64,000 bases of DNA from Phycomyces nitens (Eukaryota; Mucoromycota; Mucoromycetes; Mucorales; Phycomycetaceae), in contig JAHRBC010000007.1 of the NCBI GenBank assembly GCA_022702545.1, positions 124,001-188,000 on the forward strand, in the 5' to 3' direction. How positions within the stretch are numbered: the stretch's first letter is position 1; each line of letters opens with the position of its first letter. Shown one piece after another: positions 1,220-33,712 of the stretch. The notes under the pieces were generated by a model. The model was not told where the DNA came from. It made no database searches and was given only the letters and a program-made list of their open reading frames with translations. The position numbers were made by a program, and so were the translations under genes.

Positions 1220-1654
1220 TCAGAGAAGGAGAAAAGAGAAATAAAAGAAACAAGATGTTGGTTGGCGATTTCCAACAAATGACAAAAGAGGAAATGTAAA
1301 GAAGTGGTTGTTTAAATGTGATAGATGTTGACAGAAGGTTGAGGTGAGAAAGGTAAACACAAGTTTGTACAAAGAACGAGGTAAAAACATCACTTGCGAT
1401 CTTTCGTGCACATGCGTACACGAATAAAGTTTGGCGGGAAAATGTGACAGGCTTACCGACCCTCTCAACTATCCAAGGCACCAATTTCCAATGTCACGTG
1501 CTCCGTGACTTAGGCCAGGCTTTCCATACCAGCCTTCCACCTTCCGACCACGCGGACCGGACCAAGCTCCTGGGCCCTTCGGCTGGACTGGCCAGACTGG
1601 TCGGACCAAGGCGAGATTTGGGGTTCTGGTAATTATCCTACCACAACCGTGTCA
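1220..1654 (-). mobile_element. LTR5: fragment of a tRNA-associated LTR
   Basis: On the minus strand this begins TGACACGGTTGTGGT, closely resembling the start of LTR4 (TGACACGGTGTGTTGTGG), and it includes a GC-rich block around 1550-1630 like those of LTR3. Its tRNA-side end abuts the AAAA duplication (1655-1658) that separates it from LTR2. The distal part is cut at the T3 terminus. It is called an LTR from its terminus, its composition and its place in the stack. No second copy is in the window, so the left limit is uncertain. Confidence 0.5.
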
Positions 1655-1658
1655 AAAA

Positions 1659-2398
1659 TGATGCGTGTTGAGTTTGGTTGTGTAGCGTAAACTGGTCAAG
1701 AAGGTTTACGGACAGTTAAAGGCTAGTTGATTTCACTCGGGACAATCAACGGACAGAAATCGGGATAAGAACGGACAGAAAAATGGACAGCAACAGACAG
1801 AATATACGAACAACGGACAGTGGAACCAACAGTGAGACAGAGATCTTATAACTTTAACGGAAAACAGCCTTGTATTTCACTCAGGACAATACAAGCTCAA
1901 ATTGGGTTCAAAAGAAAATAATCGGAAAACTGAATGAATTTTATTGATAGAGATATTGCTCTTCTTTTATACAAAACTATTGAATAGTTCTTCTTACTAA
2001 TTATGTTATTCAAATGGCATTCCAATCATAGCTAAAGATAAAAGAGATTATATAAACAAATCCGGAAAAGTGTCAATGAACAAGAAGTATAAAATATGGG
2101 GGGTAAGCTGGAAAGAATTATCGAAGTGTGAACAATGGAATGGGTAAAGGTAAAAATGTCAGGGTAAATCGAAGTGAGGGGAAATAATCTTTAAAGATAA
2201 AAAGGGAAAAAGAATTGAGACAATATTCTGGACAAGAAATCCGGAAATTGGGGATAACTTCAGGTCCCGCTGAAGTTCTGACGATGGTAGTGATGGTTAG
2301 TTGTGACGTAGCACTCTTTCTTGGTGGGGCCCTTAGTGACGTCATGGGATTTCTGCTAGTTTTGTGGTGCAGATGGCAAATCTACAACACCTGTGTCA
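1659..2398 (-). mobile_element. LTR2 solo (G2 family), upstream of tRNA-Leu
   Basis: This 740-bp sequence is the reverse complement of the G2 LTRs at 23907-24636 and 29830-30546, matching along its whole length: termini TGACACAGG...CGCATCA, the TGTCCGT-rich stretch, the TATA-like box and the AATAAA region. It is flanked by AAAA at 1655-1658 and 2399-2402. No internal region is present. It is one of the LTRs stacked head to tail upstream of tRNA-Leu, oriented away from the tRNA. Confidence 0.93.
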
Positions 2399-2909
2399 AA
2401 AATGACGTGTGATGTGTGTATACGGTTGTATATAGTGACGAACGACGGCAAATAATAAAACGATAATAAAGATAAAGAAAATGACTAACGAAACTCAACA
2501 GTATATTCCCAAAATGTAACCGGGCAAAATATTACTGCTCTTCAGAGATCGAAAAGTACAAATAAAATAAAATAGAACTGGTATTAAACCCAATGAAAGA
2601 TATCTTTTATTGATTGAAAACTGAATGCCTTTTATAGACATTCAGAATCGAAAAAGAATAACCAAAAATAATAAAATAACTGGATGGAATTGTGCCATTG
2701 CAGTCAATGTAAAACAAAGAATAAAGAAATAAGTGAATAAAATGATGCAATTCTAGACAAGTGTGATAAAGTATAGTATAAAAATATTGTAAAAATAATA
2801 AAGGTAAAAATGGAAGAAGTACATTGTACAAAGACAATTGTTTAAAGAGGTGTTAAATGGTGCAATCCTGCAAGAAGGTGTCAAGGATTCACAAAAGAAA
2901 TAGAAAAGG

Positions 2910-3111
2910 TGTTACCGGCGAGACTTCCCTACACGTGATATGCTATCAGATATCAAGGGAGAGTCTAGCAAGGATCTTTTTGAAGACAACGTCTGGCAGA
3001 CAATAAAGTAGATGCGATCTTTAATAGGAAGAGAACTGTCTTTATTAAATATCGCTGTCTGAACTTATTTATAATAGTGATCCTTTGCTAAGTCACGTGT
3101 CGCTGGCGACA
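2910..3111 (-). repeat. G1 3' LTR
   Basis: Termini are TGTTACCGG...GGCGACA on the plus strand. It is 202 bp, with one mismatch to the copy at 7834-8035, and its inner edge is preceded on the coding strand by a polypurine tract. Confidence 0.95.
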
Positions 3112-3123
3112 CTACTCCCCTCC

Positions 3124-6100
3124 TCAAGACTGTTGACCTCCCGTTCTTGGTCGAGTAGTATCCCAAAGGGAACGGGGCGAGGCCTTGCCGAGTTTGATGG
3201 GCTTTAATAAGTTTGAATGGATGTAGCTACCCAGGATTCTTCCGGTTGGTGTCTTTAGCTGATAGGTGTCCATCGTGGTAGTTCGTACAACTTGAAATGG
3301 TCCTTTCCAAGCAAATTCGAACTTCTTTCTGTTTTCCTTCTTCATTACAACCCAATCATTCACTGCAAACGTTTGTCTCTTTCCCACTTTCTTCTCATGA
3401 CTTGCTGTTATTCTTTCCATTGCTTTTTGCTGATTCTCTTGTGCTATATCCCTTGCTGTGTTCAATGGTATGATTCTGTCATATACAGTTGAACTAGCTT
3501 CGCGAATCTCACAAAGGTTTGGTTCCGTGGGGTCTCCGGGTAACACCGGCTCACGACCATATACCAGGAAGAATGGACTATATCCTGTTACATCATGAAT
3601 CCTGACTCTGGTTGCGAACAATGCTTGTTCTAAGTATTTGTCCCATTGTTCCCTTCGATTTCCTGCTAACTTGATTATCATTCCACTGAGAGTTTGATTG
3701 AACCGTTCTGTTTTTCCATTTGTTCGTGGGTGATATGGTGATGTTCGAAGGTGGTGAATGTTTTGGATGTCTAAATACTGGTGTAATGTTCTGGCCATGA
3801 AGTTACGTCCTTGATCAGATAGTATTTCTTTGGGACATCCAAATGGGATCATGATTTCGTGATATATGAAATTAGCCACTGCGTCTTCTGTTGCTTCGGG
3901 TATAGCCTTGGCCACTGCCCAGTTAGTTGCGTGATCTATGGCAACGAGTATCCATTTGTTACCCCGTGGGCTGAGTGGGCATGGTCCGATAAAGTCAATA
4001 CCCCAACGCTCGAAAGGCTGTACAGGAGTAAGAGGGTGGAGGGCAGCTGTTTCTTGATGGTCTAGTGGACGATTTGCCATTTGACACTCGGGACAAGTAG
4101 AAATCCAGGCATGTACTTCGTCCCTCATCTTTGGCCACCATGCTCTTGAATTTAGAAGACTTAGAATACCATCCGCTCCCAAGTGGCCATGGCCTCGGTG
4201 GAAGGTGGTTACTAGATTGGCACGTTCTGAAAATGGGATGAAGCTACGGAATTGTCCGTTTGAGTTCGCCCGCAATATTTCGCCCTGTTCCCCAATCCTC
4301 CAAATAGGTCGTTGTAACTGCCCTACAACAAAAGGTGGTGTATTTTCTGGTATGGTGCCTTGCTGCAGATATGTGGGCACCAACAAAGGCCAATCATCGA
4401 TAACTGTATCCACCATGGGATTGAGGTGTGCCGTTGTCTGATCTGAATTGGTATCAGCACACTCCTCTCCCCCTCCATGATGATCTTCGTGGTCAGCTCA
4501 TCGTGATAAGGCATCGGGAACGATGTTGTCCTTGCCTTTCTTGTATTCATAAGTGACAAAGTAGTGTGCCAAGTCTTCAATCCATCGACGCATTCTTGGA
4601 GGCAACTCTTTCTGTGTAGGGTAATACGTCAAAGGTTTGTGGTCAGTTCTGACGGTTACCGGTCGGCCCTCGATATAACAACGCCATTCAGTCAGTGCAG
4701 CCACAATTGCCAGCATTTTGCGTTGCGTGGCAGCATAGTTGATTTCGGCATCTTTCAGCTTGCGACTGAAGAATGCGACAGGCCTCTCCTTCTGCAACAT
4801 CGTCGCTCCAATAGCAAAATCCGATGCGTCTGTCTCAATGACGACAGGAATAGTTGGATCATACGGTTGCAGAATTGGAGCATTAGTCATGGCATGCTTG
4901 AGAGTGGAGAATGCGACTTCACACTTGGGAGACCAGTCAACCTTCCGTGTCTTGAAACCGACACCGTTGGTCAAGGCATGTAGTGGTGCGGCAATCTTGG
5001 CAAAGTCCTTTATGAACCGTCAGTAGTAACTGGACAGGCCAAGGAAGGAACGAACCTCTCGAACTGTAGCTGGTTGGGGCCATTCCTTGATGGCTGCGAT
5101 CTTGGATTCCTCGACTTTGATACCCTCCTTACCAATGACATGACCCACATAATGGACTTCTTGCAAGCCAATGTGCGATTTCGCCGGGTTGGTATACAGA
5201 TGGTGTTTGCGAAGGCGGTCAAGTACCATACGAACATGCTTGATGTGGTCCTCCTTACTCTTACTGTATATAAGAATATCATCTAAATATACGCAAGCAA
5301 ACTGATCAATATATCCACGCAAGACTTCATTCATCAGGGCTTGGAAAACTGGTGGAGCATTGGTAAGTCCGAATGGCATCACCAGGAATTCAAATTGGCC
5401 ATAGCGTGTATTGAAGGCAGTTTTTGGGACATCCTTTGGATCGATCTGTAGTTGCCAATAACCAGAGGTGAGATCAATTGTTGAAAAGTACTGTGCACCA
5501 GCTAATTGATCAAAAGTCTCATCGATGCGTGGTAAAGGATAACGGTTTTTGACTGTGACATTGTTTAGAGCACGATAATCTATGCACATCCGCATTTGTC
5601 CATTCTTTTTACGCACAAATATCACAGGAGAGCTCCAAGGGGATGCCGAAGGACGGATCATTCCACGTTTCATTAGCGAAGCTAACTGTGTTTTCATTTC
5701 CTCCAGTTCTTGTGGCGACATTCGGTAAGTAGTACCCTTGATGGCGGTGGAATTGCCAGTATCGATTGTCATTAGAGGACCGTTATACTCTGGATTAGGA
5801 CCTGGGAGATCATCGCGGAAAACATCTTTGAATTCTCCTCGTATCTTATCCCAGAATTGCTCAGTGATCGTTTTCAACGGCTGCTCGGCTATACTCAATA
5901 AAAAATCATTGTCTTGCTTGGTGTGGGGTGTAAACACAATATTGAATTCATCGCAGATGAGCCTCCACCTGTCTTCTGTGTCCTCCTCACACTCTATTGT
6001 CATGTTAAGGAATTGTTCTGCAGTGTTGGGCATCTCATGCAACTCTCCCTTAACATCCAGCATAGCCAAGTACGCCTCACATCCATCTTTCAAGTATCTG

Positions 6101-6806
6101 CGTGCTTCTTTGAAAGTCAGCAGCGCAAAACTCTCACTTTCCTCTTCGCATTCCTTTTCCATACTTGATAACTTGATGGGCTTTCCCTTAGTATCACTTT
6201 CCCACACTGGGGCAACATAAGGGTCCAGTGTAATCCATTGACCATCTACTTGTAACTGCATACAATCCGTTCTCCAATCAATATTTGGATTCTCTGTTCT
6301 CAACCAGTCTTTTCCCAAGACCACATCGAACTTGGTCAAAGGGAACAAAACCATAGACAAGAGGACTTGATAATGAGAACCAATGTGTAGTATAGTGGAT
6401 GTTTCTTTATTGACTTGGACAAAGTTTCCATTGGCTACTTCCACTCTTGTATTGGAGTTGAGGATTGAGGTGATTGGTAGATTGTTTCGAGAACTGAATT
6501 CTTCAGATATGAAGCTCCTGGTGGCGCCGCTATCAATCAGGATTCTGACTGTTTGTCCCTTGATAGTGCCTGCAAAGAGTGTCAGTTCTGATCGGTTGGC
6601 CAAAGTGAAAGCTTGTTCTTCGTCATAATATACCTGAGGAACCTTGGTATCTTGGTCTTCGAACCTGTAGGCATGGCTTCCTCTGCTTGTATATCCTGTC
6701 TCCTCCTCTTGAGGACTGTGTTGTTCGTAATGTGTCATAGTGTTGTTTTGGGCAGGGTAAGTGCTGCCGGACGAGTTCCCCTGCATTAAACTGTCCGACT
6801 GTCTTT
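3124..6806 (-). pseudogene. pol: G1 Pol polyprotein with two TGA stops
   Basis: One reading frame runs from the gag overlap to 3124, broken only by TGA at 5020-5022 and at 4498-4500. Domains in order: aspartic protease (LIDSGATRSF); reverse transcriptase (CIDYRALNNVTVK, active site YLDD); RNase H (VVIETDASDFAIGATML, RTDHKPLTY); and integrase with an HHCC finger (H..H..CPEC), catalytic Asp in GIDFIGP and LSDQGRNF, and Glu in NGKTERFNQTL. Both stops fall where an Arg codon is expected (after SYY and after DALSR), consistent with CGA->TGA. It could be dead, or read through, and I favour dead. The C-terminus has no chromodomain. Confidence 0.88.
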
Positions 6807-7805
6807 TCCCGAACGGTCCGGACAGAATCGTACCAAGTGACCTGGCTGTCCACACTCGTAGCATGTACCTTGCTGTCGTGCTTCCTGTCGGTCTACCTTT
6901 CGTGGTGCATGGGTTTGCATGCGGTCCAAATCCATTGGTGCGGAGGTGTTGTTTCTTGCCCGAGGTGCAGAATATGCTTGTTGTCGAACCGGTTGCAGAT
7001 TGTTTTGCTTAGGATTTCTGATCCTAATGCCATCCCATTGCGTGGCTATTCTTATGGCGTCTTGCAACGTCTCTGGCTTGGCGTTCCACACATGGCCTTG
7101 TAGCTCTGGCTTGAGCCGATCGATATACCCATGTTTGCGTGTAAATGGATCCATGTTCCTGATCTGCAACATGATGTCGCAATATGCATTAGAGAAGTCA
7201 TTAACGGTGCCCGTCTGTTTCAAGTTGGCCCAATTATCATAAGCCATCTTTTCGTGGTCTACAGGCATGAATTGAGTCTTTAATTCGTCCGCAAACTCGT
7301 GAAAGGTAATTAGAGAGGTGCGGTTCTTGCCGTCAAGGAAATAATCTTTCCTGAGAGTAAACCAATCTGCGGCGGCCCCCGAGAGATAACTGGCTGCAAT
7401 GTCTAATGCGTCATCTTCGTGTACTTGACAATGATACAGATATCTCTCCATCCCATCTACCCATCGCACGATGTCGCTATGCTTGCGTTTTCCTTCGTAT
7501 GGTTGTGGCGGTGCGACCTTGACCGAGTGGTGTCTACGTGAGGAGCTGTCAGATCGTCTTGCCTCGTCTACATGGACCCCTCGTTGCTGGTGCAGGCTGT
7601 TCTCCTCGTTCCGCCTTTCCAAATGTTCCAAGGTCAAGGTGATCTGGGCCAAAATGCCCTGCTGCTCTCGCGTCTCAGCCATTAGCTCGCTCATGCTGTA
7701 TTCCACTTGTATCAACCGGCTGTTCAGTGGCACTGTCTCGTCTAAATGTAGGCGTTGTACCTCTTGTACCACCTCTTCAATACGATCGTTGGGATCGGTT
7801 GCCAT
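6786..7805 (-). CDS. gag: G1 Gag
   Basis: A 339-residue capsid/nucleocapsid precursor. The N-terminal third is a coiled-coil-like region. A retrotransposon-gag domain follows around residues 95-215 (WVDGMERYLYHCQ, ADWFTLRKDYF). A CCHC zinc knuckle (CYECGQPGHLVRFC) lies close to the end and should bind RNA. The start is the first ATG after the 5' LTR. The stop (6786-6788) lies just past a GGGAAAA heptamer that allows a shift into pol, which is in the -1 frame. The reading frame is intact. Confidence 0.92.
   Translation of the reverse strand: MATDPNDRIEEVVQEVQRLHLDETVPLNSRLIQVEYSMSELMAETREQQGILAQITLTLEHLERRNEENSLHQQRGVHVDEARRSDSSSRRHHSVKVAPPQPYEGKRKHSDIVRWVDGMERYLYHCQVHEDDALDIAASYLSGAAADWFTLRKDYFLDGKNRTSLITFHEFADELKTQFMPVDHEKMAYDNWANLKQTGTVNDFSNAYCDIMLQIRNMDPFTRKHGYIDRLKPELQGHVWNAKPETLQDAIRIATQWDGIRIRNPKQNNLQPVRQQAYSAPRARNNTSAPMDLDRMQTHAPRKVDRQEARQQGTCYECGQPGHLVRFCPDRSGKDSRTV
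6804..6810 (-). promoter_or_regulatory. Programmed -1 frameshift site, G1 gag-pol
   Basis: The coding strand reads TCG GGA AAA GAC in the gag frame, so the heptamer G GGA AAA has the X XXY YYZ form. Slipping back one base enters the pol frame, which is open across this point. A possible 5-bp stem (CGGAC...GTCCG) lies downstream. G2 has the same heptamer at the same place. Confidence 0.75.
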
Positions 7806-7833
7806 GATTTGTCTTTTGTACTTCAGCTACCAA

Positions 7834-8035
7834 TGTTACCGGCGAGACTTCCCTACACGTGATATGCTATCAGATATCAAGGGAGAGTCTAGCAAGGATC
7901 TTTTTGAAGACAACGTCTGGCAGACAATAAAGTAGATGCGATCTTTAATAGGAAGAGAACTGTCTTTATTAAATATCGCTGTCTGAACTTATTTATAATA
8001 GCGATCCTTTGCTAAGTCACGTGTCGCTGGCGACA
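7834..8035 (-). repeat. G1 5' LTR
   Basis: Partner of the LTR at 2910-3111. The gag ATG (7805) lies about 29 bp inside its inner edge, after a TTGGTAGCTGAAGT primer-binding candidate. Confidence 0.95.
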
Positions 8036-8288
8036 AAGGAAATAATATAAAAAAGGAAATAAATAAATGTGATAAAATAAAAACGGGAAAAGACTAGGAA
8101 GAAAGAAAAATATAGAAACTCGGGGATCGCCCTGCCAACGTCACCTCACCAGAAACCCGCCTAACTCACTCGGCTCGGACTTCTTACTCGGGCTAGCCCG
8201 GCCTCCGACACCTCCTACGTCTATGTCCGGGCCCTTGGTCCGACTTCATGGTCGAAACCGAACCTGTCAACAACACACGTGTCAGAAA

Positions 8289-9279
8289 TGACGCGTGTGG
8301 TACTTTGTTGTGTGTAGGAGGTGGACGAGAAAAGAAAGGTACGGGTAGTAATATGGATCGAAATCCGGAATGGAGGAAAAATAGGTTCGAAAAGGAGGAA
8401 ACGGGTGTAAATAAGATAGTCGCTTTGTTACCAAAGTGACTACAAGGACAGGAATAAGAAATGCTTTCACAAAAGTGAGAGCAAAAGGGGATACAAATAG
8501 GATGGATACAAATATATGATATTAACTTCACCACAGGTGAATCAATAACGAAATACAGCACAGGGATACAAATGAGAATAAAAAAAAGGGGGTAGTCAAT
8601 CTTCCAAGAAGACTTGACTAGTACAAATAAAAATATAAAGAACAACCAATCTTCCACGAAGACTTGGTAAGAAACAAAATATAACGGAAGAAATTCACAA
8701 GAAAGAATAAGGATTCAGACAACTTTGTCAGAGAAGAAACTTGTATCAGAATTCGACCTTGTTTATTGAGTGTTTGATTTTGAGATATTTATACTAATTG
8801 TTGGATAAAATAATATACGATAAAATAATAGAAAGATGTTGTATGAAATCATAAAATAACATACGGAAGAGTTGACAGAAGATTGGATAGAATAGAATCA
8901 ATAAAAATAATAATAATAATAAAACTAAATAAATGAGAAAATTGTTGGGAGATTTGTAGACTTGACTAACGAGAGATTCTTTACCAAAATTGTTAAAGAA
9001 GTGTACAACAAAACACAACACTAAATTTTAGTGTGAGTGGAAATCGAAAGAAAGGGGAAAAGGTTTTGTTAAGGAAAAATTAGAAAAATTGAGAGACAAA
9101 AAAAAAAAAAAAAAAAATGTCAAAGGGAAAAGGTGCAAAGGTCTTCGCCCGCCGTCGGCAAATGAAATAAATTGAGGACCACGTCACGACTACCTGCACC
9201 GTCAGTGACCTTGGCTACCCAAAACGGCCCAAAAATCGGGTTGCGACTGAGGCCGACAACACCACAACACACCGTGTCA
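8289..9279 (-). mobile_element. LTR4 solo, adjacent to tRNA-Leu
   Basis: This 991-bp sequence has minus-strand termini TGACACGGTGTGTTGTGG...CCACACGCGTCA. It is flanked by a perfect 4-bp duplication, GAAA, at 8285-8288 and 9280-9283. In its own orientation it has a TATA-like TATAAATAT (near 8795) and AATAAA (near 8763), the order expected in an LTR. It ends 10 bp before the first base of the tRNA. A run of 19 A lies at about 9099-9117. There is no coding content. Confidence 0.85.
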
Positions 9280-9289
9280 GAAACTATAT

Positions 9290-9372
9290 GGAGAGATGGC
9301 CGAGTTGGTCTAAGGCGTCACGTTAAGGCCGTGATCTCTTCGGAGGCGTGGGTTCGAATCCCACTCTCTTCA
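9290..9372 (+). tRNA. tRNA-Leu (AAG anticodon)
   Basis: The 83-nt sequence folds as a class II tRNA. The acceptor GGAGAGA pairs with TCTCTTC (one G-U pair), the D-arm is GCC/GGC, and the anticodon stem TCACG/CGTGA encloses the loop TTAAGGC, giving anticodon AAG. A long variable arm is followed by the T-arm GTGGG-TTCGAAT-CCCAC and discriminator A, as expected for leucine. No intron is seen. A T-run follows directly. Four LTRs are stacked upstream and an LTR-like sequence starts 8 bp downstream. Confidence 0.96.
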
Positions 9373-19062: not shown

Positions 19063-19144
19063 CGTCGACTGCAGGATTTGAACCTACGCGGGCAGAGCCC
19101 ATGTGATTTCTAGTCACACTCCTTAACCACTCGGACAAATCGAC
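19063..19144 (-). tRNA. tRNA-Ser (AGA anticodon)
   Basis: On the minus strand the 82-nt sequence folds as a class II tRNA. The acceptor GTCGATT pairs with AGTCGAC, the D-arm is TCC/GGA, and the stem TGTGA/TCACA encloses the loop CTAGAAA, giving anticodon AGA. A 14-nt variable arm is followed by the T-arm GTAGG-TTCAAAT-CCTGC and discriminator G, typical of serine. A T-rich stretch follows on the minus strand. A LINE starts at the base just upstream of nucleotide 1. Confidence 0.95.
19130..19144 (-). repeat. LINE target duplication, tRNA-side copy
   Basis: The 15 bp are tRNA-Ser nucleotides 1-15 and are repeated exactly at 23883-23897. Confidence 0.9.
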
Positions 19145-19382
19145 CGGCCAAACCACTACGGCTCTTTCGCTTAAGGATTTTTTTACCCCAAAAAATTTCC
19201 TTTTATAGTAATTTTACCGAACTTTCCATCCATCCTAACCAACACTGCCAACAACTACGCATCCATCGCCTACCACGCCCCATCCCGCCTCCGTAGCAAG
19301 TTTTCCATTAAGCTTACCAGTCCAAGCACCCACTGTCCAAGTTTCAGCCCAAACGAACGACATTTATTTTCCCCGATTCCCG

Positions 19383-20264
19383 ATGTCATCTTCAATGATG
19401 CCCCCAATCCCAGGCGCATCAAATGAGCTCATGTCTTTTTTGGCCTCCATGTTGACCCGCCTTGACAACACTGAGAAGCTTGCTGTCCAAGTGAAGGCTC
19501 TTGAAGCCGAGAACAACCGCCTCCAAGCAGAATTGGCGGACACCCGAAAACGTCTTGAGCAGGCTACGACCTCTCAAACCTCCCTTCCCCTGGGCAATAG
19601 CCCAAATGTTTCAACCTCCGACCCCGCCCCAAATCCCAGTTCCCAGGAACCAGGATTGGAAGCCTCCACTTGGGCTGCCAAGGCCAGCGTCAACCGCCCC
19701 CCTCCTGCCCGTAAGGGTCCTTCCCCACGCCGAGTTGCTGCTTCTCAGCGTATTTTCACTGCGGCCTCTGGCCCCCTTGGATATAAATACGTTTATATTC
19801 CTCGCTCCCGTCGCCTTACCCACAGGGAAGTGCGTAGCTCCCTCCGCACCCTTGGTATTGACACTGCTCGTCTGTTGGACATTAATTTCCCTGCTCGTGG
19901 AGTTGTTGGCATACTGGTCCACCTCCAGTTCATTGACGAATTTGAGGCACAACTCAATAGAGCCAAGGTGGAGATCATTGGTGACTTTGATCCCGTTGAC
20001 CCACAACACTTGGCAGACCCCAAGTACCACGATCTCCCTCTGGACGAGCGGGCAAATACTGCCATTCAAGTACAGAATGCGCGTTGTCTCCAGACCCTCA
20101 AGTTCCTCCGCCCCCATGTTGCCCTCCCAGTTGCCCACTTCTTTGTTGAAGAAGGGTGGATTAGCTCTGATGAGGTGCCTCCCCGTTCTGCTCTTGGTGG
20201 GGATGCTGAACAACTGTTTAAGAGAAAGCGCACTCTCGATCCAAGCAGCCTCATGGAAGAATGA
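19383..20264 (+). CDS. LINE L1 ORF1 protein
   Basis: A 293-residue protein, the RNA-binding partner of ORF2 in retrotransposition. Residues ~20-62 form a heptad coiled coil (LEAENNRLQAELADTRKRL). A Ser/Pro/Ala-rich linker follows, then a basic folded domain from about residue 135 (GYKYVYIPRSRRLTHREVRS...), whose nucleic-acid-binding role is inferred. No CCHC knuckle is seen. Its TGA overlaps the ATG of ORF2 (ATGA at 20261-20264). The frame is intact and nearly identical to L2's ORF1. Confidence 0.85.
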   Translation: MSSSMMPPIPGASNELMSFLASMLTRLDNTEKLAVQVKALEAENNRLQAELADTRKRLEQATTSQTSLPLGNSPNVSTSDPAPNPSSQEPGLEASTWAAKASVNRPPPARKGPSPRRVAASQRIFTAASGPLGYKYVYIPRSRRLTHREVRSSLRTLGIDTARLLDINFPARGVVGILVHLQFIDEFEAQLNRAKVEIIGDFDPVDPQHLADPKYHDLPLDERANTAIQVQNARCLQTLKFLRPHVALPVAHFFVEEGWISSDEVPPRSALGGDAEQLFKRKRTLDPSSLMEE

Positions 20265-23200
20265 GTGAGCTTTCTATAGGATTATGGAACGCCAATGGGC
20301 TTCAACCCCGTGCCATAAACGACGTGCTCAACCACTGTCAGTCCCTCCATATGCTCTTCATCACAGAAACATGGCTCCTGTCACCTGCGCGTATTCTCAC
20401 ATCATGGTCCCAATTTCATTTGTACGGACCCCCTGTTGCTGGGACATACAGTGGGTCAATGGGAGTTTCATTGTTAGTCTCCCCTTCCTGTCCTTACACC
20501 GTCACCCAAATCCCTATGCCCAACAACTATGCCCTCGCCGTCAAGATTGGCACCCTTCGATTGGTTTGTGTTTACCTCCCCCTCTATGTCCACTGCCGAT
20601 GCCCTTTCTGTTCTCTCTGACATTCCTTTGACTGAAGACACCCTCCTTTGTGGGGACTTCAATGCCCGTTTGGGTTCCATCACTGGAGATTATGCCACAA
20701 ATTCTCGCGGCCTAGCACTTAGTGCATGGCTAGAAGAAAGATCCCTCACTGTCCTTAATGGCTCACTCTCTCCTTGCACCCCCACCTACATTTCCTTTCG
20801 CCGTGAAGTCGAAATTAGCAGTATCATTGACCTATTCATCACCAACACCAATTTCGCCAATCCCTCTCTCCACATTCAAACCGAACTCTCCCTAGGCTCT
20901 GACCACCGACTTCTTTCACTTTCCTTCACCTATGACCTTGACCCTTCCCCTCCATCTCCACCCCCTCTCCGCCGACTCTGGAACCTCTCACGCCTCAAGG
21001 AACCAGACGTCCTTCAACTCTACACCGATTCCCTCATCCTCAACGCCACACCCCTCCTCAACACCTTGCAAGACATTGTACAAAACCCGCCCTCCTCTCC
21101 TCCCCCATTGATGCCCTTACTAACGATTTCAACACACTCATTTATGATTCTCTTAGTAGTTCAATAGGTACCCGCCCTCACCGCCCATCCAAATGGAAGA
21201 AATTCTGGACCCCTGCCCTTCAAGCGGCAGCCGACCATCGTGATGGTTGTTACAAGCAATGGCGTCGTGCTTGTGGCATTGACAAGATCAATTGGTGGAG
21301 CCGGCACCAACATGCACATCAGGAGTTCCGTCAACAAGTCCAGACAGCAAAACGTCAATCCTGGCACGCCTTCTGTAGGTCTCTGGAACGTGACTTTGCC
21401 AAGGCCACTTCCAAGATCAAACAGATCAAAAGGCGTCGACAACCCAAACATGTCTTCCAACATGACGATGGCCCAGCTGCTGCAGCAACCATCATGTGCA
21501 ACCACCTTGCTTCGGTGTATAGTGGCCACATCCTTCCTTCCTCCCGCCCTCCTCCTCCTCCATCAACCTCTCCTCACCTGCCTTTCGCCGCTGTTGACTC
21601 CCCATTTGATTCGTCAGTGGTGGAAGAATACATGCGATTTATGCCTAGCCGCAAGGCGCCGGGTCCTGACCATATCCGTGCAGAAATGCTTAAGCCCGTT
21701 CGGTCCAAACTCTCTCCTCTCCTTGCCCTGCTCTTCACTCTGTGTTGGCAGTGGTCTTATGTCCCCTCTCTCTGGCGCCAAGCCCAAGTTTTCCCAATCT
21801 TCAAGAAGGGTAACCCAAACGACGCTGCCAATTATCGGCCAATCTCTCTCACTTCTGTTCTTCGGAAATTACTTGAGATGTGTATTGCGCCTGATCTCAC
21901 CAAGTTCTCTCCTCCCTTGGACGTAGCACAAGGTGGATTTCGCCCCGACGTGGAGCACTGGACCAGGCCCTCTGCTTGCATGACCTTGTCAAAGCCCACT
22001 ACCGCCGCCACAACCGCTACCCTGTAGTCGCCTTCCTTGACATCAAGGCAGCTTATGACACCGTAGACCGACGTGTCATTTGGGATGCTCTTGTCCGCCG
22101 TCAAACTCCCCTGCCCTCGTTGGCCTCCTTGTCAACATGTTTGACGAAGTCTCCATCTCTGTCCTTCTTGGCAACTTCTCCTCCCATTCCTTCTCTCCTT
22201 CCACAGGTGTACTGCAAGGCTCAGTCCTCAGTCCCCACTTATACTCTATCTACATCAACTCCCTGCCGCCTCTCCTTCGCACAGTTGCTCTGTCTACATC
22301 CGCCGCCCATGTCCCATCGTCCTCTCCCTCCTCGTTGGATTCCTATCGCGCCCTTTTGGATCCTTCAGGTGTGGATGACTTTGGCGATTCCACCTCTCCC
22401 ACGCCGATTAACTCTCTTCTCTTTGCTGACGACGTTGCCATTTTTGGTTCCGTTCCTGACGTTCAGAAAATGTTGGATCTGGCCGCAGCCCACTCTCTGG
22501 AACTCGGTTACCGTTGGAGTCCATCCAAATGTGCATTTGTGTACCAAAACTCCCGCTCCCACTCTCCTCCCTCCCTCTCCCTGTATGGTGAGTTACTCCC
22601 TGCAGTGGATGAGTTTATCTACCTTGGCATGCCGTTCCGGAGTAAGGGAATTCATTCCCCCTCCATTGTAACCCATCGTCGAGCTGGTACCCTTGCTGCC
22701 ATGGCCACAATGCACGCCGTTGGTGCCTGCCGTTCTGGTTTCTCTCTGCTCTTGAGCTCTCGGTTATACCGAACGTTCATCCGTCCCAAGTTCGAGTATG
22801 GCCTGGCCATTGCCCCACTCCTAGAAAAGGATTTCAAGGCCTTGGAACTGATACAAGATAAGTGTCTTCGCATGATAGTTGGGGGCATGCCACGTCCTCC
22901 ACTATTGTGTTGAAGCACATCTGTAATATACCCAGCATGAGATTCCGCAAGGATATCCTTGTTACCAAGTTCTGCCTTCGGGCCCGTACCCTTCCTTCCC
23001 GCTGTCTCCTTTCTCTCCTCCACCAACACCACCGTTCCCATTCCTCCCTTGTCCCGCTGAGCCACCATCCATTCCTTCTCGATATGCCAGTTTCCCTCAA
23101 CGTACGTAGCATCAACGCCGTACAAAAATACCTTGACTCCCGTCGAGTGTCCCTTTTCGCCACCTTCCTCTCCAACACCACCCAAGTCTTGATCCAAGCA

Positions 23201-23584
23201 TGTCGCCCTGACCTTGGGGTTGACCCAATCCTGTTCCTCCCTGCTTCCCGAGTAGAACGTGGTCGCCTTGTTCGTTGGCGAATGGGTTGGCTACCCGGAA
23301 ACCCTCGTTCATGTGCATGTGAGACAGACCACACCTCTCGCCGTCATCTCGCCATCTGCCCTAGGATCCCATCAGAACTCCTTGCTTCCCTCCCAATCCC
23401 TCCCTCTCCTGCGAATCATCCCATTGATTTTGCCATCTCCTCCCTCCCTTCCTCTTCCTCGGCCCCATGTCCGCCATACTGGGTGCCATTGCTCACCATT
23501 CTCTGGCACATCGATCAATTGTGCAACCCTGATGGGGAGTACTCCCACGAGAAGAACCATGGTGCTTTGTGGCATGCTGCTTAG
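20261..23584 (+). pseudogene. LINE L1 ORF2: endonuclease-reverse transcriptase, frameshifted
   Basis: The APE-type endonuclease lies at the N-terminus (LWNANGL, ITETWL, CGDFNARLG, LGSDHRLLS). The reverse transcriptase follows: KAPGPDHIRAEML, FPIFKKGNPNDAANYRPISL, FLDIKAAYDTVDR, LQGSVLSPHLYSI and LFADDVAIF, the last being the catalytic pair. The C-terminal part ends with a Cys/His motif (CACETDHTSRRHLAIC). Frame breaks: a C5 tract at about 20580 (C7 in L2), about 21100 (one C fewer than L2), and further shifts near 21950-22100 and 22870. The protein was a target-primed RT and is now broken. Clade was not assigned. Confidence 0.88.
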
Positions 23585-23882
23585 CATTTTTTTTTTTATT
23601 TTATTTTATTTTATCTTTTTCTAGTTCTTTTCGCACAGGAAAAGTTGTCTGTCTGTTCTCCTATCTCCTCCCTTCCACTGTTACAACTATTTCACAGCTG
23701 CGAAGTGGAGAGTAGGGCTCAGCTTTCATCTTAGTACTGTTAGCTCACTCCATTTTTCTCTACTTTTTTTTGTCTTCCTTGTGCCCAAGAGACTTTTTTG
23801 CTTCCCTTCCAGTAGTTCTCGAGATGCTAAATGGTCTATAGACTGCCAGCACTATATCTCTCAATAAAACATAATCTTTAAC

Positions 23883-23906
23883 CTCGGACAAATCGACACG
23901 GCTCTT
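23883..23906. repeat. Copy of tRNA-Ser nucleotides 1-15 plus first bases of LINE L2
   Basis: 23883-23897 repeats the first 15 nt of tRNA-Ser. 23898-23906 (ACGGCTCTT) matches the L1 leader at 19158 onward, so it is the 5' tip of the second LINE copy, L2, 13 nt shorter than L1. G2 then interrupts. Confidence 0.85.
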
Positions 23907-24636
23907 TGACACAGGTGTTGTAGAATTGCCAGCTGCACCACAAAACTAGCAGAAACTCCGTGACGTCACTAAGGGCCCCACCAAGAAAAAGTGCTACGTC
24001 ACAACTAACCGTCACTACCATCGTCAGAACTTCAGCGGGACCTGAAGTTATCCCCAATTTCCGGATTCCTTGTCCAGAATATTGTCTCAACTCTTTTTCC
24101 TTTTTTATCTTTAAAGATTATTTCCCCTTACTTCGATTTACCCTGACATTTTTACCTTTACCCATTCCATTGTTCACACTTCGATAATTCTTTCCAGCTT
24201 ACCCCCCATATTTTATACCTCTTGTTCATTGACACTTTTCCGGATTTGTTCATATAATCTATTTTATCTTTAGTTGTAGTTGGAATGATATTTGAATAAC
24301 ATAATTAGTAAGAAGAGCTATTCAATAGTTTTGTATAAAAGAAGAGCAATATCTCTATCAATAAAATTCATTCAGTTTTCCGATTATTTTCTTTTGAACC
24401 CAATTCGAGCTTGTATTGTCCTGAGTGAAATACAAGGCTGTTTTCCGTTAAAGTTATAAGATCTCTGTCTCACTGTTGGTTCCGTTGTCCGTTGTCCGTA
24501 TTATCTGTCCGTTTTTCTGTCCGTTCTTATCCCGATTCCTGTCCGTTGATTGTCCCGAGTGAAATCAACTACCTCTTAACTGTCCGTAAACCTTCTTGAC
24601 CAGTTTACGCTACACAACCAAACTCAACACGCGTCA
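23907..24636 (+). repeat. G2 5' LTR
   Basis: Termini TGACACAGG...ACGCGTCA. TATA-like GTATAAAAGAAG at about 24331, AATAAAATTC at about 24360, then a U5 rich in TGTCCGT repeats. Confidence 0.95.
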
Positions 24637-24712
24637 AGTGGAGGTCGTGCCGAGGATTACAATACTATAACGTGTTGAGCATCCAAAAATCTTTCTTATT
24701 ATATAACAAAAA

Positions 24713-25531
24713 ATGACTACAAGCACCAAGTTTCTTGCTGCACCCGAATCCTTCAGTGGCACTAGCCAGCCAGACCCTCTTGCTTGGTTCCAGCACATGG
24801 ATCGAATCCGTCGCGCGGTTGGGATGACCGATGAGGAGGCTCTTCTGGTAGCAGCTACGCATTTCAAGGGAAATGCAATGCGTTGGTGGAACATCAATGA
24901 GGAGAATCTCACGACTTGGGAGACCTTTGAAGTGGCATTCAAGAAGCAGTTCATATCCCGCCATATGGAGGAGGTTTGGTGGAATGAACTAGAGACGATC
25001 AAGCAATTGCCTGGTCAGACCGTAGACGATCTGGTCCTTCGTCTTGGAGAACTGTTTTCATATCTTGGAATTCAGAACGAACAACAAAAGATCAGAGTCT
25101 TCTTGCGTGTGGTGAACGAAAGGATTGGTTACCTGCTGGAGCAAAGAGGTGTACCAAACCGAATGGAGAACCTTGCGACGTTGGCCCGTAAGATCGAACT
25201 TGTCGAGAACAAGTACCACCACCGCAACCGACCTGCGCCTAGCCAGGACGTCCGCCAGAACTGGAATGTGCCTTCCACAACTACTGCATCGGAGTACCCC
25301 GAATCCTTTCATTCCACGTTGAGCCAACTAGTGCAAGGCATCAACGCAATCCAATCCAGATTGAATCACCCTCCCCCTATTCCTGTTCCGGTAGTTGCCA
25401 CTGCTCCATACCAACGACCAGTATTTACATGTTACGAGTGTAACCAAGAAGGGCATAGGAAGGCGAATTGCCCCAGGTTACAGCAGACAAACCAGGGAGG
25501 CCAGACGGGAAAAGCCAACGGGCAACAGTAG
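24713..25531 (+). CDS. gag: G2 Gag
   Basis: A 272-residue Gag. The retrotransposon-gag domain spans about residues 20-165 (WFQHMDRIRRAVG, AMRWWNINEENLTTWETFE). A basic, Pro-rich linker leads to a single CCHC knuckle (CYECNQEGHRKANC). The start is the first ATG after the LTR. The stop (TAG) lies 16 bases after a GGGAAAA slippery heptamer that leads into pol in the -1 frame. Confidence 0.93.
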   Translation: MTTSTKFLAAPESFSGTSQPDPLAWFQHMDRIRRAVGMTDEEALLVAATHFKGNAMRWWNINEENLTTWETFEVAFKKQFISRHMEEVWWNELETIKQLPGQTVDDLVLRLGELFSYLGIQNEQQKIRVFLRVVNERIGYLLEQRGVPNRMENLATLARKIELVENKYHHRNRPAPSQDVRQNWNVPSTTTASEYPESFHSTLSQLVQGINAIQSRLNHPPPIPVPVVATAPYQRPVFTCYECNQEGHRKANCPRLQQTNQGGQTGKANGQQ

Positions 25532-28215
25532 ATCGGGATGCCGTTGCCCCCCAAACAAGAAACCCGACAAACCCGGTCAATGTAGTCCAAACAGCCCCGG
25601 CTGTGTATGCCGCAGAGAAGAGGGCTCCAAGGAAAAAGCCAGAAGAGACACCAATAAGCCGTAAGGGGAAAGAGCCAGTAAGGAACGAACATCCCTTAGA
25701 ATTCCAGAATCAGGGGACGTTCCTGCCCAATGGCATGTACCCACCGCAAGGATATACTGGTCACTACAACAACACACTGGTTCAACCACAAGTGCAGCCA
25801 GGACCAAGTAATTCCCAAGGTGCACCAAGACCAGTTCAACAACAGGAGCAGATGGAAGACGTGGTCCAAGAAACGGCGAACAAGAAAAAGAGGGCACCAC
25901 CAAGACTACTCCCAGTAAAGTTGAAGAAGAAGGAATTCTGGGAAAAGCTCAAGACAATGGATGCTGGCCTGTCGATGGCAGATTGGTTGTCAATGGATCG
26001 TGAAGCCAAGACCGATGTACGTGATGGATTGCGTTATCTTGCAAAACGTCAAGCACAAGGGGTCGCCAGCGGAAAGGTGCACATGGTGGAGCGAGATACG
26101 GATTCCGAGTACGAATCTGTAACCGATACAGTCCTTAGCGAGGAGGAGTATGAAGAAGACTGGGACGAAGGTTCACATGTAGCAGCCTATGATCAAGAAT
26201 CAGTGGATGGGTATTCCGTTGCGGATACGGGGTACGATAGCGATGACACAGAATATAGCTATCAATATGACTTCAAGAAGCTCACCCATAGTCAACCATT
26301 AAAGGCCCCAATTATGATCAATGGAGAGGTCATAGAGGCTATATTCGACTCAGGAGCAAGTGTTTCTGTGATAAGTAAGGAGCTGGCGACAAGACTACAC
26401 CTCGTTCCGAATGGTGATCGACTACCGATATCTTCACTTGATGGCATTCCTCATAAGCCTTGTGATATCGCGGTCGATGTACAAGTCAGAGTTTGTGGGA
26501 AACTGCGGCCAGAGACCATGTGCATTCAAGATAGCAAGACCAACCCTGACCTGTGCCTCTTGGGTATGACTTGGTGCCGGGCGTACAACATCCAATTGCG
26601 CCTACAAGACTCCACTATCGTAATTCCAACCAAGCATGGAGCAGGCTTCGTTGAATTACGTGGGCGGTCAGAGGATCTTGAGGATAGCGAGGTGAAGAAT
26701 CCAGGGGTTTTCTCGGTGACCGTAAGGGAGATTGGGGAGCAAGGTCAAGAAGAAGGGAAGAGGGAGGAAAGCTTGAAGAAGTATGAGGAAGAAGTGATGT
26801 CCGAGAGCGGGGATGAAGACGAGGTCCCAGATATCATCGCTGAGCTAGTAAAGGAGAACGAGAACACCTTTGTGGAGAACGCTGGCTTGGGCCGTATCTC
26901 AGTATTGTCTCACGACATACCGACCTTCAGCAATGTTCCAATCCGTTCGCGACCATACAGACTGACTTGGGAAGAAGAGGAAGCACTCAGTTCAGAAGTG
27001 GCTAGCTTGTTGGATCTCGGGTTGATCAGACCGTCGCGTGGTATATGGACCTCTCCAGTGTTCTTTGTCAAGAAAAGGGACAGTACACTGCGATTAGTAG
27101 TGGATTACCGAAGGCTTAATCAGATCACCACGAAGGATGCCTTCCCGTTGCCATACATTGATGATCTTTTGGACTCGCTGGGTGGGTCTTCATGGTTCTC
27201 CACACTGGATGCAGCGAGTGGGTTTTGGCAAGTCCCAGTATCAGAAGGTTCCATTGAGAAAACCGGTTTTGTGACGAAGCAAGGCACTTTTGAATTTACA
27301 GTCATGCCGTTTGGTTTGACTTCGGCGCCATCCACCTTTCAACGTGCTATGTCAGTCATCTTGAAGGAGTTCATTGGGAAATTTATATATGTGTTTATCG
27401 ACGACATTATTATATTCTCCAAGTCGTTGGAAGAGCATCGCGACCATCTCAAGGCGGTTTTTGATGCGTGCAAGAGGGCCAATCTACGATTGAAACTGAG
27501 CAAGTGTTCTTTCGCGAAGAAGCAAGTTGAATACTTGGGACATGTGGTGTCAGATCAAGGATTATCACCGTGCAACCGAAATGTAGAGAAGGTGCTTACT
27601 ATGACGGTTCCCAAGACAACCAACGAGGTGCACACATTCTTAGGAATGGCGGGTTATTACAGGCGCTTTGTTAATAACTATGCAGCGTTGGCTCAACCGC
27701 TCACCAAGCTGTTGAAGAAGGATACTCCGTTTGTCTGGAAGGAAGAACAAGACAAGGCTTTCCAAACTTTGCAACAATGTCTGGTGCATCCACCCATCTT
27801 GGATTTCCCAAACCGTGAGCAAGTGCAAATACTCACCACCGACGCTTCTACCCGTGGGTTAGGGGCCGTTCTCTCACAAGCTCCTGAGGACGATTTGACT
27901 CAAGAATCAGTCATAGCCTATGGATCAAGGGGACTAAGAGGGTCAGAAAGGAATTATGCGGCAACGCATTTGGAGGCCCTGGGATTGATTTGGGGAATCA
28001 CACGGTTCCGCCACTATTTAGCAGGAAGAAAATTCATTTTGCGTACTGACCACGCCGCTCTGGTCTTTATTGTCAATAATGTCAAGCCATCACCGAAATT
28101 GTCAAGATGGGCAGCCGCCCTTATGGAGTACGACTTTGTCATCCAACATCAACCTGGTCGTGACAATCCGGCCGATGCATTATCACGCCTACTTCCAGCC
28201 GGTGGTAACCAGTAA
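25468..28215 (+). CDS. pol: G2 Pol: protease-reverse transcriptase-RNase H
   Basis: The frame is reached by the shift at 25507. An acidic, low-complexity N-terminal region precedes the protease (AIFDSGASVSVISKEL), RT (VDYRRLNQITTKDAFP, active site FIDDIIIF) and RNase H (TTDASTRGLGAVLSQ, LRTDHAALVF, DNPADALSRLL). The frame ends with TAA right after RNase H; integrase is in another frame after a 245-bp AT-rich gap, which is unusual. There is no premature stop. A GTAAAA donor at 28212 would allow in-frame splicing to integrase. Confidence 0.92.
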   Translation: MPQVTADKPGRPDGKSQRATVDRDAVAPQTRNPTNPVNVVQTAPAVYAAEKRAPRKKPEETPISRKGKEPVRNEHPLEFQNQGTFLPNGMYPPQGYTGHYNNTLVQPQVQPGPSNSQGAPRPVQQQEQMEDVVQETANKKKRAPPRLLPVKLKKKEFWEKLKTMDAGLSMADWLSMDREAKTDVRDGLRYLAKRQAQGVASGKVHMVERDTDSEYESVTDTVLSEEEYEEDWDEGSHVAAYDQESVDGYSVADTGYDSDDTEYSYQYDFKKLTHSQPLKAPIMINGEVIEAIFDSGASVSVISKELATRLHLVPNGDRLPISSLDGIPHKPCDIAVDVQVRVCGKLRPETMCIQDSKTNPDLCLLGMTWCRAYNIQLRLQDSTIVIPTKHGAGFVELRGRSEDLEDSEVKNPGVFSVTVREIGEQGQEEGKREESLKKYEEEVMSESGDEDEVPDIIAELVKENENTFVENAGLGRISVLSHDIPTFSNVPIRSRPYRLTWEEEEALSSEVASLLDLGLIRPSRGIWTSPVFFVKKRDSTLRLVVDYRRLNQITTKDAFPLPYIDDLLDSLGGSSWFSTLDAASGFWQVPVSEGSIEKTGFVTKQGTFEFTVMPFGLTSAPSTFQRAMSVILKEFIGKFIYVFIDDIIIFSKSLEEHRDHLKAVFDACKRANLRLKLSKCSFAKKQVEYLGHVVSDQGLSPCNRNVEKVLTMTVPKTTNEVHTFLGMAGYYRRFVNNYAALAQPLTKLLKKDTPFVWKEEQDKAFQTLQQCLVHPPILDFPNREQVQILTTDASTRGLGAVLSQAPEDDLTQESVIAYGSRGLRGSERNYAATHLEALGLIWGITRFRHYLAGRKFILRTDHAALVFIVNNVKPSPKLSRWAAALMEYDFVIQHQPGRDNPADALSRLLPAGGNQ
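25507..25513 (+). promoter_or_regulatory. Programmed -1 frameshift site, G2 gag-pol
   Basis: In the gag frame the heptamer reads G GGA AAA. After a 6-nt spacer, GGGCAAC (25520-25526) pairs perfectly with GTTGCCC (25543-25549), giving a 7-bp hairpin with a 16-nt loop that contains the gag stop. The geometry is standard for -1 frameshifting. Confidence 0.85.
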
Positions 28216-28460
28216 AATATTTTACTACTCCTTTAAACCCTTGACATATTTCATTTTCGTTTTTTCTTGCTTGGCGGCAAAATTCTCATTTATTATTTTA
28301 TCACACACAAAAAATTACAAAATCCTTCAAAAACATTGTAAAAATTCCTTGAAAACATTCCCAAAAATATATATATCTTTATTTGCACAACGCCCACTCA
28401 TACTTATACACTTGTTTCTTTTGCTGGCGTTTCCCTCTCACAACTCTACCCTCGTTCACA
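28216..28460 (+). promoter_or_regulatory. Non-coding spacer inside G2 between RNase H and integrase
   Basis: This AT-rich stretch includes TATATATATC near 28367 and a pyrimidine-rich run before the ATG at 28461. It could be an internal promoter and leader for integrase, or part of an intron from 28212 (CA|GTAAAA) to 28504 (ACCAG|A), which would join the RNase H and integrase frames exactly. Confidence 0.4.
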
Positions 28461-29789: not shown

Positions 29790-29829
29790 GTTCTGCCAGT
29801 TCATGTGGACTTGCTTAGAGGGGGAGCCT

Positions 29830-30546
29830 TGACACAGGTGTTGTAGAATTGCCAGCTGCACCACAAAACTAGCAGAAACTCCGTGACGTCACTAAGGGCC
29901 CCACCAAGAAAAAGTGCTACGTCACTACCATCGTCAGAACTTCAGCGGGACCTGAAGTTATCCCCAATTTCCGGATTCCTTGTCCAGAATATTGTCTCAA
30001 CTCTTTTTCCTTTTTTATCTTTAAAGATTATTTCCCCTTACTTCGATTTACCCTGACATTTTTACCTTTACCCATTCCATTGTTCACACTTCGATAATTC
30101 TTTCCAGCTTACCCCCCATATTTTATACCTCTTGTTCATTGACACTTTTCCGGATTTGTTCATATAATCTATTTTATCTTTAGTTGTAGTTGGAATGATA
30201 TTTGAATAACATAATTAGTAAGAAGAGCTATTCAATAGTTTTGTATAAAAGAAGAGCAATATCTCTATCAATAAAATTCATTCAGTTTTCCGATTATTTT
30301 CTTTTGAACCCAATTCGAGCTTGTATTGTCCTGAGTGAAATACAAGGCTGTTTTCCGTTAAAGTTATAAGATCTCTGTCTCACTGTTGGTTCCGTTGTCC
30401 GTTGTCCGTATTATCTGTCCGTTTTTCTGTCCGTTCTTATCCCGATTCCTGTCCGTTGATTGTCCCGAGTGAAATCAACTACCCCTTAACTGTCCGTAAA
30501 CCTTCTTGACCAGTTTACGCTACACAACCAAACTCAACACGCGTCA
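29830..30546 (+). repeat. G2 3' LTR
   Basis: Same as the 5' LTR except for loss of 13 bp (AACTAACCGTCAC in the 5' copy) and CCCCTT for CCTCTT near the end. Confidence 0.95.
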
Positions 30547-30552
30547 TCTTTC

Positions 30553-31229: not shown

Positions 31230-31446
31230 TTTCGCTTAAGGATTTTTTTACCCCAAAAATTTCCTTTTATAGTAATTTTACCGAACTTTCCATCCATCCT
31301 AATCAACACTGCCAACAACTACGCATCCATCGCCTACCACGCTCCATCCCGCCTCCGTAGCAAGTTTTCCATTAAGCTTACCAGTCCAAGCACCCACTGT
31401 CCAAGTTTCAGCCCAAACGAACGACATTTATTTTCCCTGATTCCCG

Positions 31447-33300: not shown

Positions 33301-33712
33301 CACTACGGCGGAAGGACCGGTAGCTGTGCCAAAAACGGTAGCATAACTACCGTTTTTTATGATTTTAGAGCACTTTATCTCCGCAGATTGTGGTTGAAAG
33401 GTAATGTCATCGATGCCGATTCATAAAAGTCGCATGGAATGTCTTTTCATCAGGCAATGAGGTAGTTGTAGTACCATAGAAAGGGCTCGTAAGTTTTTAG
33501 GCAACATTGTTTATTGAAATGAGCATTTTATTTGGTGTTAAAGATGTTGCACATTTTTGAGAAAAATAATTTTTCGCCTGTGTGAACAAAACGGTAGTTA
33601 TGCTACTGTTTTTTTTTGAAACAATTTTTTTGTTTTTGACATTATTAGCCATTTTATTTTATTTTATTTGGTATTGATATTTATAAGGAAAGAAAAAAGA
33701 AAAAGAAAATTT

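Follow-up and report, generated by a model that had tools for sequence, protein, structure and literature searches.

One-way stacks of Ty3/gypsy long terminal repeats before tRNA genes of Phycomyces nitens probably reflect repeated integration at the polymerase III start site

In a 64,000-nucleotide stretch of the Phycomyces nitens genome (Mucorales; GenBank assembly GCA_022702545.1, contig JAHRBC010000007.1, positions 124,001 to 188,000, forward strand), hereafter the window, several long terminal repeats (LTRs) are lined up in front of a tRNA-Leu gene (window positions 1220 to 9372), which raises the question of what process places one retroelement after another at a single site. An earlier reading of the letters alone (the sequence-only reading) proposed repeated integration by a gypsy lineage that targets genes transcribed by RNA polymerase III (Pol III). 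We find that a group of LTR families occupies a fixed position before tRNA genes, with 4-bp target-site duplications (TSDs), insertion repeated at one base pair by different families, standing copies in a single orientation, and, in the family labeled LTR2, an order by age. We consider it about 90% probable that a related Ty3/gypsy group inserts at the Pol III start site of tRNA genes, in one direction and with a 4-bp TSD, building stacks of solo LTRs that age outward. Positions refer to the window unless a contig is named; the genome searched is the 49-Mb assembly of 11 contigs (C1 to C11), and loci fetched from across it are labeled L0xx.

Followed toward the gene, with every repeat on the minus strand, the tRNA-Leu stack comprises LTR5 (1220 to 1654, its outer part missing), AAAA (1655 to 1658), a solo LTR2 (1659 to 2398; TSD AAAA/AAAA; same family as the full-length element at 23907 to 30546), AAAA (2399 to 2402), LTR3 in two parts (2403 to 2909 and 8036 to 8284; a relative lies at 30553 to 31229), GAAA (8285 to 8288), LTR4 (8289 to 9279; TSD GAAA/GAAA; a 95% copy in L064), and a further GAAA (9280 to 9283), the target duplication on the tRNA side. 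CTATAT (6 bp) separates this last GAAA from the mature tRNA-Leu (anticodon AAG; 9290 to 9372, plus strand; Rfam start 9290, ARAGORN start 9289), and the distance from LTR4 to the tRNA, read directly, is 10 bp, as had been stated. Nested in LTR3 is gypsy A (2910 to 8035, minus strand), a full-length Ty3/gypsy element of a different family (5.1 kb; LTRs of 202 bp, 99.5% identical to each other; TSD AAGG). The original description of four LTRs set end to end and split by 4-mers thus stands as to order and 4-mers, both read directly, with the amendments that LTR5 is only a fragment and that gypsy A interrupts LTR3; the idea of one shared 4-mer stands only in that each junction carries a 4-mer, for the series AAAA, AAAA, GAAA, GAAA has two spellings. 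These letters would be explained if all the insertions belong to one series at the same base pair and a lone A/G change occurred between the third and fourth of them (LTR3 and LTR4). LTR2, LTR3, LTR4, and LTR5 have no mutual similarity (BLAST, 1e-5) and are therefore different families with alike tips, which we call the LTR group.

The relatives of LTR5 in L009, L016, and L021 (91 to 94%) align only from position 1220, where another repeat ends. This repeat of about 534 bp (687 to 1220) adjoins the truncated LTR5, recurs at 54091 to 54623, and is perhaps a DNA transposon; ends resembling its own (CAGTG/CACTG) break LTR2-family copies in L069, L087, L088, L089, and L090.

What kind of element LTR2 belongs to is answered by the full-length copy on the plus strand (23907 to 30546; TSD TCTT at 23903 to 23906 and 30547 to 30550), which starts 9 bp from a duplicated tRNA-Ser 5' end. 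Its 5' LTR (23907 to 24636) and 3' LTR (29830 to 30546) are 98% identical, and LTR2 is 94% and 93% identical to them, respectively. Between them lie gag (24713 to 25531; Retrotrans_gag and a zinc knuckle), a first part of pol with protease, reverse transcriptase (RT), and RNase H (25459 to 28215), and an integrase in its own open reading frame (28461 to 29789), all on the plus strand and, by Pfam, in the order of Ty3/gypsy elements (Metaviridae). The LTR tips (TGACAC...GCGTCA) and 4-bp duplication have the TG...CA ends and short TSD of that group; the best match of the RT among solved structures is Ty3 RT, and the integrase matches those of foamy virus and Ty3 by both sequence and fold. Foamy virus integrase makes a 4-bp duplication, the same length as in the LTR2 group. 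A TGG-starting primer site (TGGAGGTCG...) 2 bp past the 5' LTR suggests a tRNA primer, and a polypurine tract (AGAGGGGGAG) immediately precedes the 3' LTR. Among the 120 relatives listed, the closest proteins come from Mucor saturninus (integrase 86%) and then other Mucorales, in keeping with the early-diverging fungus surmised at the outset. No chromodomain was found in the integrase, either by Pfam (no Chromo match) or in the predicted structure (mean predicted local distance difference test score 82), nor among the precomputed domains of the 120 relatives listed; in the predicted structure the chain closes with a helix shortly past the SH3-like strands. The integrase ATG (28461) lies 245 bases past the RT-RNase H stop (28215) in a different frame, and the locus tags of the RT and integrase proteins are neighbors in four pairs from M. 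saturninus and two from Rhizopus, so that the split of pol looks conserved, gene-model errors aside.

Where, then, do members of this family lie across the genome? The LTR2 query yields 36 matches, 28 of which have their tRNA-facing end inside one of the loci extracted; of the other eight, L087 and L088 break off short of that end, and six have no locus. On the facing side, 10 copies have a tRNA (the end lying 8 or 10 bp before the ARAGORN start), and 3 have a tRNA 5' fragment followed by the end of a long interspersed nuclear element (LINE); 12 adjoin a further group LTR, as identified by BLAST, one adjoins the interior of the full-length element, and the remaining two adjoin unmatched sequence. 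Members lying mostly away from Pol III genes had been named as the outcome that would speak against targeting; 25 of these 28 ends instead meet a tRNA, a tRNA fragment, or a group LTR, which upholds a Pol III-targeted gypsy lineage whose targets seen here are tRNA genes. Behind the next element in four of the 12 LTR-facing copies, and likewise in L066, there is a tRNA with an LTR-like end (GTGACA in L066) 8 to 10 bp before it.

The same position recurs when tRNAs are the starting point. An Rfam search listed 63 tRNAs, and the 49 outside C2 form our sample, which is not evenly spread because 13 of them are tRNA-Lys near contig ends (9 occupied). An LTR end lies 8 to 12 bp upstream of 25 of the 49 (9/22, 12/20, and 4/7, the last set being judged by pattern positions only); one of these ends is spelled GTGTTA. 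The pattern GTGTCA-N{58,88}-B-box has 92 genome matches, against 1 in a reversed control. Letters are available for 52 of the 92 rows (40 show none); with one overlapping duplicate omitted, 51 were scored, and three of these lack an A box by the automatic rule (two are tRNA-Ala by eye, one is not a tRNA), leaving 48. The gap between LTR and tRNA is 8, 9, 10, 11, and 12 bp in 1, 12, 20, 10, and 2 junctions, hence 8 to 12 bp in 45 of 48; among the outliers (3, 3, and 5), the two gaps of 3 trace by eye to an earlier GTGTCA or a misplaced A box, and the gap of 5 remains. The sequence-only reading had named a sharp peak at -9 to -14 as support for targeting; among sampled tRNAs and pattern matches there is such a peak, at 8 to 12 bp, and the distance holds across many tRNA isotypes. 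None of the 100 LTR-LTR junctions listed (of 119; see below) lies within 40 kb of the 33 matches to 5S genes, as judged by eye, LTR ends beside 5S genes not having been searched directly.

Families differ in this respect. LTR matches of gypsy A lie within 120 bp of a known tRNA in 0 of 27 cases and within 10 kb in 2 of 27 (both being the copy in the window), versus 10 of 35 and 20 of 35 for LTR2 (a 70%-identity match, C5:5066054, is omitted); since the tRNA set is incomplete and enriched for occupied tRNAs, these figures compare families and do not give absolute rates. Closeness to Ty3 as the sole cause of targeting can be dismissed, as gypsy A, which is not tRNA associated, also has Ty3-like RT and integrase. 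Separately, 14 bases (TGTTACCGGCGAGA) at 9381, directly after tRNA-Leu, are identical to the start of the gypsy A LTR. A family of LTRs targeted downstream of tRNAs, as TGTTACCGGCGAGA 8 bp past tRNA-Leu might indicate, was rejected: the pattern B-box-N{8,38}-TGTTACCGG has 1 genome match, this site, versus 1 in the reversed control.

The insertions are regular in orientation, too. The 5' end of the LTR (TGACAC...) faces the tRNA in all occupied tRNAs whose letters were read, so that the element is transcribed away from the gene, and the same end faces the gene in 25 of the 25 occupied tRNAs of the sample; 21 of these were read with 60 bases upstream, independently of any GCGTCA pattern. Genome-wide, the pattern with the 5' end facing the tRNA has its 92 matches against 1 for the mirror pattern with the 3' end (GCGTCA), and that single match, at a tRNA-Asn (L054), has upstream sequence that looks like unrelated DNA. 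Insertion of the LTR group thus looks locked in orientation relative to the tRNA; the sequence-only reading had noted neither this lock nor the LINE that occurs in these stacks.

Whether a stack arises by repeated integration can be judged from its junctions. The pattern LTR-NNNN-LTR (up to 3 mismatches) has 119 genome matches versus 2 in the reversed control, so stacking is not chance. For the 100 listed of these 119, obtained with a pattern that favors GAAA-like 4-mers (a bias that the shuffles keep), neighboring junctions on the same strand carry identical 4-mers in all 16 pairs within 2 kb (shuffles: mean 1.05, maximum 6) and in 25 of 28 within 20 kb (shuffles: mean 1.86); of 31 neighboring pairs no more than 20 kb apart, 28 have both junctions on one strand. 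The tRNA-side 4-mer equals that of the nearest junction in 18 of 24 cases. Adjacent LTRs come from different families in 18 of 24 pairs and from the same family in 6 (30 loci were compared, six of them without a second LTR end). The shared 4-mers within 2 kb and the mixed-family pairs bear out the proposal of repeated integration at one base pair, and the flanks of LTR2 do the same for the proposed 4-bp duplication: among 26 rows (L061 to L086), 18 have identical 4-mers on either side, the LTRs of the full-length element account for two more (AAGA on both outer sides), two are truncated, two (L072 and L075) resemble one duplicated segment, and two differ. The duplication is 5 bp in Ty3 of Saccharomyces cerevisiae, as opposed to 4 bp in the LTR group.

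The junctions are also tied to anchors, by which we mean 122 occupied tRNAs or ends of the A-box LINE described below, an incomplete set with some positions approximate. On their facing side, 53 of the 100 junctions listed have a same-strand anchor within 10 kb, as against 1.2 under random placement; opposite-strand anchors and anchors behind number 0. If the range is widened to 50 kb, 75 junctions have their nearest facing anchor on the same strand. Age follows distance in LTR2: of the 11 young insertions (nearest-relative identity 99.6% or higher for each), 8 touch a tRNA, compared with 2 of the 13 older ones, counted after merging one duplicated segment (Fisher p 0.011; 9 of 11 and 4 of 13 if tRNA fragments count as tRNAs). 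That young copies are mostly at a tRNA and older ones mostly not fits growth at the tRNA side.

A second stack in the window, anchored at a tRNA-Ser on the minus strand (anticodon AGA; 19063 to 19144; Rfam and ARAGORN), shows the LTR group sharing a target with another kind of element. Outward from the gene come a LINE inserted at the A box (19145 to 23882, plus strand), a 15-bp copy of the tRNA 5' end (duplication at 19130 to 19144 and 23883 to 23897), 9 bp made up of a 5-bp spacer and TCTT, the full-length LTR2-family element, an older LTR3-type solo LTR (30553 to 31229, plus strand; TSD TTTC at 30549 to 30552 and 31230 to 31233), and, outermost in the stack examined, the 5' part of a second LINE copy (31234 to 33346, plus strand). 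Because the 15-bp duplication recreates the 5' end of the tRNA-Ser, the tRNA gene stays intact after LINE insertion. Within the target, 2 bp separate the two LTR insertions. The flanks outside both, once joined, resemble the first LINE's leader, which makes it probable that the second LINE was present before either LTR element. Genome-wide, the LINE inserts directly past the A-box AG of tRNA genes (TRKYNNAG precedes 20 of 23 exact LINE 3' ends) and occupies the same tRNA stacks as the LTR group.

A mechanism that would produce such stacks can be outlined. The integrase would place the cDNA where Pol III starts to transcribe a tRNA gene, leaving the LTR edge 8 to 12 bp before the mature tRNA and a 4-bp duplication; every insertion would recreate the identical 4-mer beside the tRNA, so that the next element would land at the same base pair and displace older ones outward. 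A stack would then be a time series, with the youngest member next to the tRNA. The single orientation found, with the 5' LTR end toward the tRNA and transcription away from it, would follow if a Pol III factor bound at the tRNA (likely TFIIIB, by analogy with Ty3) serves as the docking site of the intasome and this docking tells the U3 end from the U5 end. As the integrase has no detected chromodomain, a TFIIIB-type contact, if any, must use another surface. Solo LTRs would form later by LTR-LTR recombination, an established route for LTR elements.

Comparison with known elements shows both precedent and difference. Like the LTR2 element, Ty3 has the order protease, RT, RNase H, integrase and inserts at tRNA start sites; with the Pol III start placed about 10 bp upstream of the mature tRNA (PMC5911963), LTR edges 8 to 12 bp before the tRNA fall at the start site as Ty3 does. 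Ty3, however, inserts in both orientations, with a requirement for Tfc1/TFIIIC (PMC5911963), unlike the LTR group (92 versus 1 matches; 25 of 25 sampled), and its integrase has a chromodomain that takes part in the contact with TFIIIB (PMC8632968), whereas neither Pfam nor the model reveals one in the LTR2-element integrase. DGLT-A of Dictyostelium is likewise a Ty3/gypsy element upstream of tRNAs with an integrase lacking a chromodomain (PMC5006619), but it lies 13 to 33 bp upstream in either orientation (PMC5911963), as opposed to 8 to 12 bp in one orientation. Closest in behavior is Tj1 of Schizosaccharomyces japonicus, a Ty3/gypsy element found 5 to 11 bp before mature tRNAs in one fixed orientation, with all 16 insertions at Pol III genes reading with the gene; its authors were unaware of a fixed orientation in any further wild-type retrovirus or LTR element (PMC4600332), and our literature search, which covered open-licence papers, found no other one-way LTR element besides Tj1. 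The LTR group shares the fixed orientation relative to the Pol III gene but reads away from it, both in the two window stacks and, by the facing LTR end, genome-wide; moreover, 3 of 17 Tj1 insertions are at 5S genes, whereas the LTR-group junctions listed give no sign of 5S, and Tj1 is self-primed, where the TGG-starting site after the 5' LTR of the LTR2 element suggests a tRNA primer. Other Ty3/gypsy elements at tRNA genes are Beta/Tca8 of Candida and Ylt1, Tyl3, and Tyl6 of Yarrowia (PMC5911963), which, unlike the LTR group, come from Ascomycetes; the relevant section of that paper does not state the orientation of these elements. In Rhizopus oryzae, also of the Mucorales, Ty3-like elements were described in 2009 as "often co-localizing with tRNA genes" (PMC2699053), in a text that gives no distance, duplication, orientation, or stacking, so tRNA targeting in Mucorales is not new in outline.

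We lean, by a little, toward a broader reading: two unrelated classes of retroelement, a Ty3-type group with an end-discriminating integrase and a LINE that cuts within the A box and recreates the tRNA 5' end, would alternate at the same tRNAs, about half of the sampled tRNAs would be growing one-way stacks in which distance records age, and the orientation lock would be intrinsic to the intasome, a mirror image of Tj1.

Several explanations compete with targeted, one-way integration. Targeting could be random in orientation, with opposite copies purged by selection, since the missing orientation would transcribe toward, and enter, the tRNA gene. Standing copies, as the authors of Tj1 also caution (PMC4600332), cannot part integration bias from selection; but the 11 young LTR2 insertions, also in tRNA-facing stacks, are in one orientation only, and new insertions of Tj1 can be one-way, reading in the tRNA direction and tolerated (PMC4600332), which leaves selection a rather unlikely contender. 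Stacks could instead have grown by tandem duplication or unequal LTR recombination after a single insertion, as the six same-family pairs and the resemblance of L072 and L075 to copies of one duplicated segment might suggest. That 18 of 24 adjacent LTRs differ in family argues against simple tandem duplication, as do the absence of any mutual match among LTR2, 3, 4, and 5 and the fact that most LTR2 insertions have a 4-bp duplication of their own, and we regard this origin as very improbable. Least plausible of all is a mere preference for A-rich sequence that happens to sit upstream of tRNAs, with no Pol III factor involved. AAAA is indeed the commonest 4-mer, at 20 of the 100 junctions listed (by the GAAA-biased pattern) and 9 of 48 tRNA-side junctions; yet 29 different 4-mers occur among those 100, the distance of 8 to 12 bp is constant across many isotypes, the orientation tracks the tRNA strand, and at most one (L089) of the 28 LTR2 facing ends could be a non-tRNA A-rich site.

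Some observations weigh against targeted, one-way integration itself. The tRNA-side 4-mer is unlike the nearest junction in 6 of 24 cases, 3 of 31 neighboring junctions within 20 kb are on differing strands, and the nearest facing anchor within 50 kb is on the opposite strand for 5 of the 100 junctions listed. For 47 of the 100, the first 10 kb on the facing side contain no known anchor, and an Rfam scan of 31 loci with 1.5-kb flanks found no Pol III gene except the tRNA in L066. Long stacks, lost tRNAs, or an incomplete tRNA list could each explain junctions of this kind; some do sit in long stacks, and some remain unexplained. Two of the 28 LTR2 facing ends (L066 and L089) are in unmatched sequence, although L066 has a tRNA-Ala 565 bp further on. 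The test for the 3' end used one spelling, GCGTCA, so variant ends would be missed, and all the data come from standing copies, with no newly arisen insertions among them.

Because the complexes in which integrases act are nearly symmetric, insertion strictly in one direction requires some feature that tells one LTR end from the other at the target, and the data suggest an unusually strict targeting machinery. The LTR group looks like a second natural case of fixed orientation, one that runs in the opposite direction to Tj1, comprises far more insertions, comes from a distantly related fungal phylum, and has no detectable chromodomain. Comparing the two could reveal the contact that sets direction, a matter that bears on the safe direction of retroviral integration, and the stacks offer ordered insertion histories inside one genome. 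As far as our searches go, within the open-licence literature, the new features are precision to the base pair, a duplication of 4 bp, a single orientation that opposes that of Tj1, stacks of mixed families, and tRNAs shared with the A-box LINE.

Three further features of the assembly were noted. The 33 matches to 5S are on C3, C7, C9, and C11, mostly 11 to 12 kb apart and partly at contig ends, and resemble ribosomal DNA-linked 5S. C2, a 187-kb contig with dense repeated tRNA genes, is probably mitochondrial with large repeats. Outside C2, a tRNA-Lys (judged by its first bases) lies within about 40 kb of 13 of 20 contig ends, and 9 of these 13 have an LTR 9 to 12 bp upstream.

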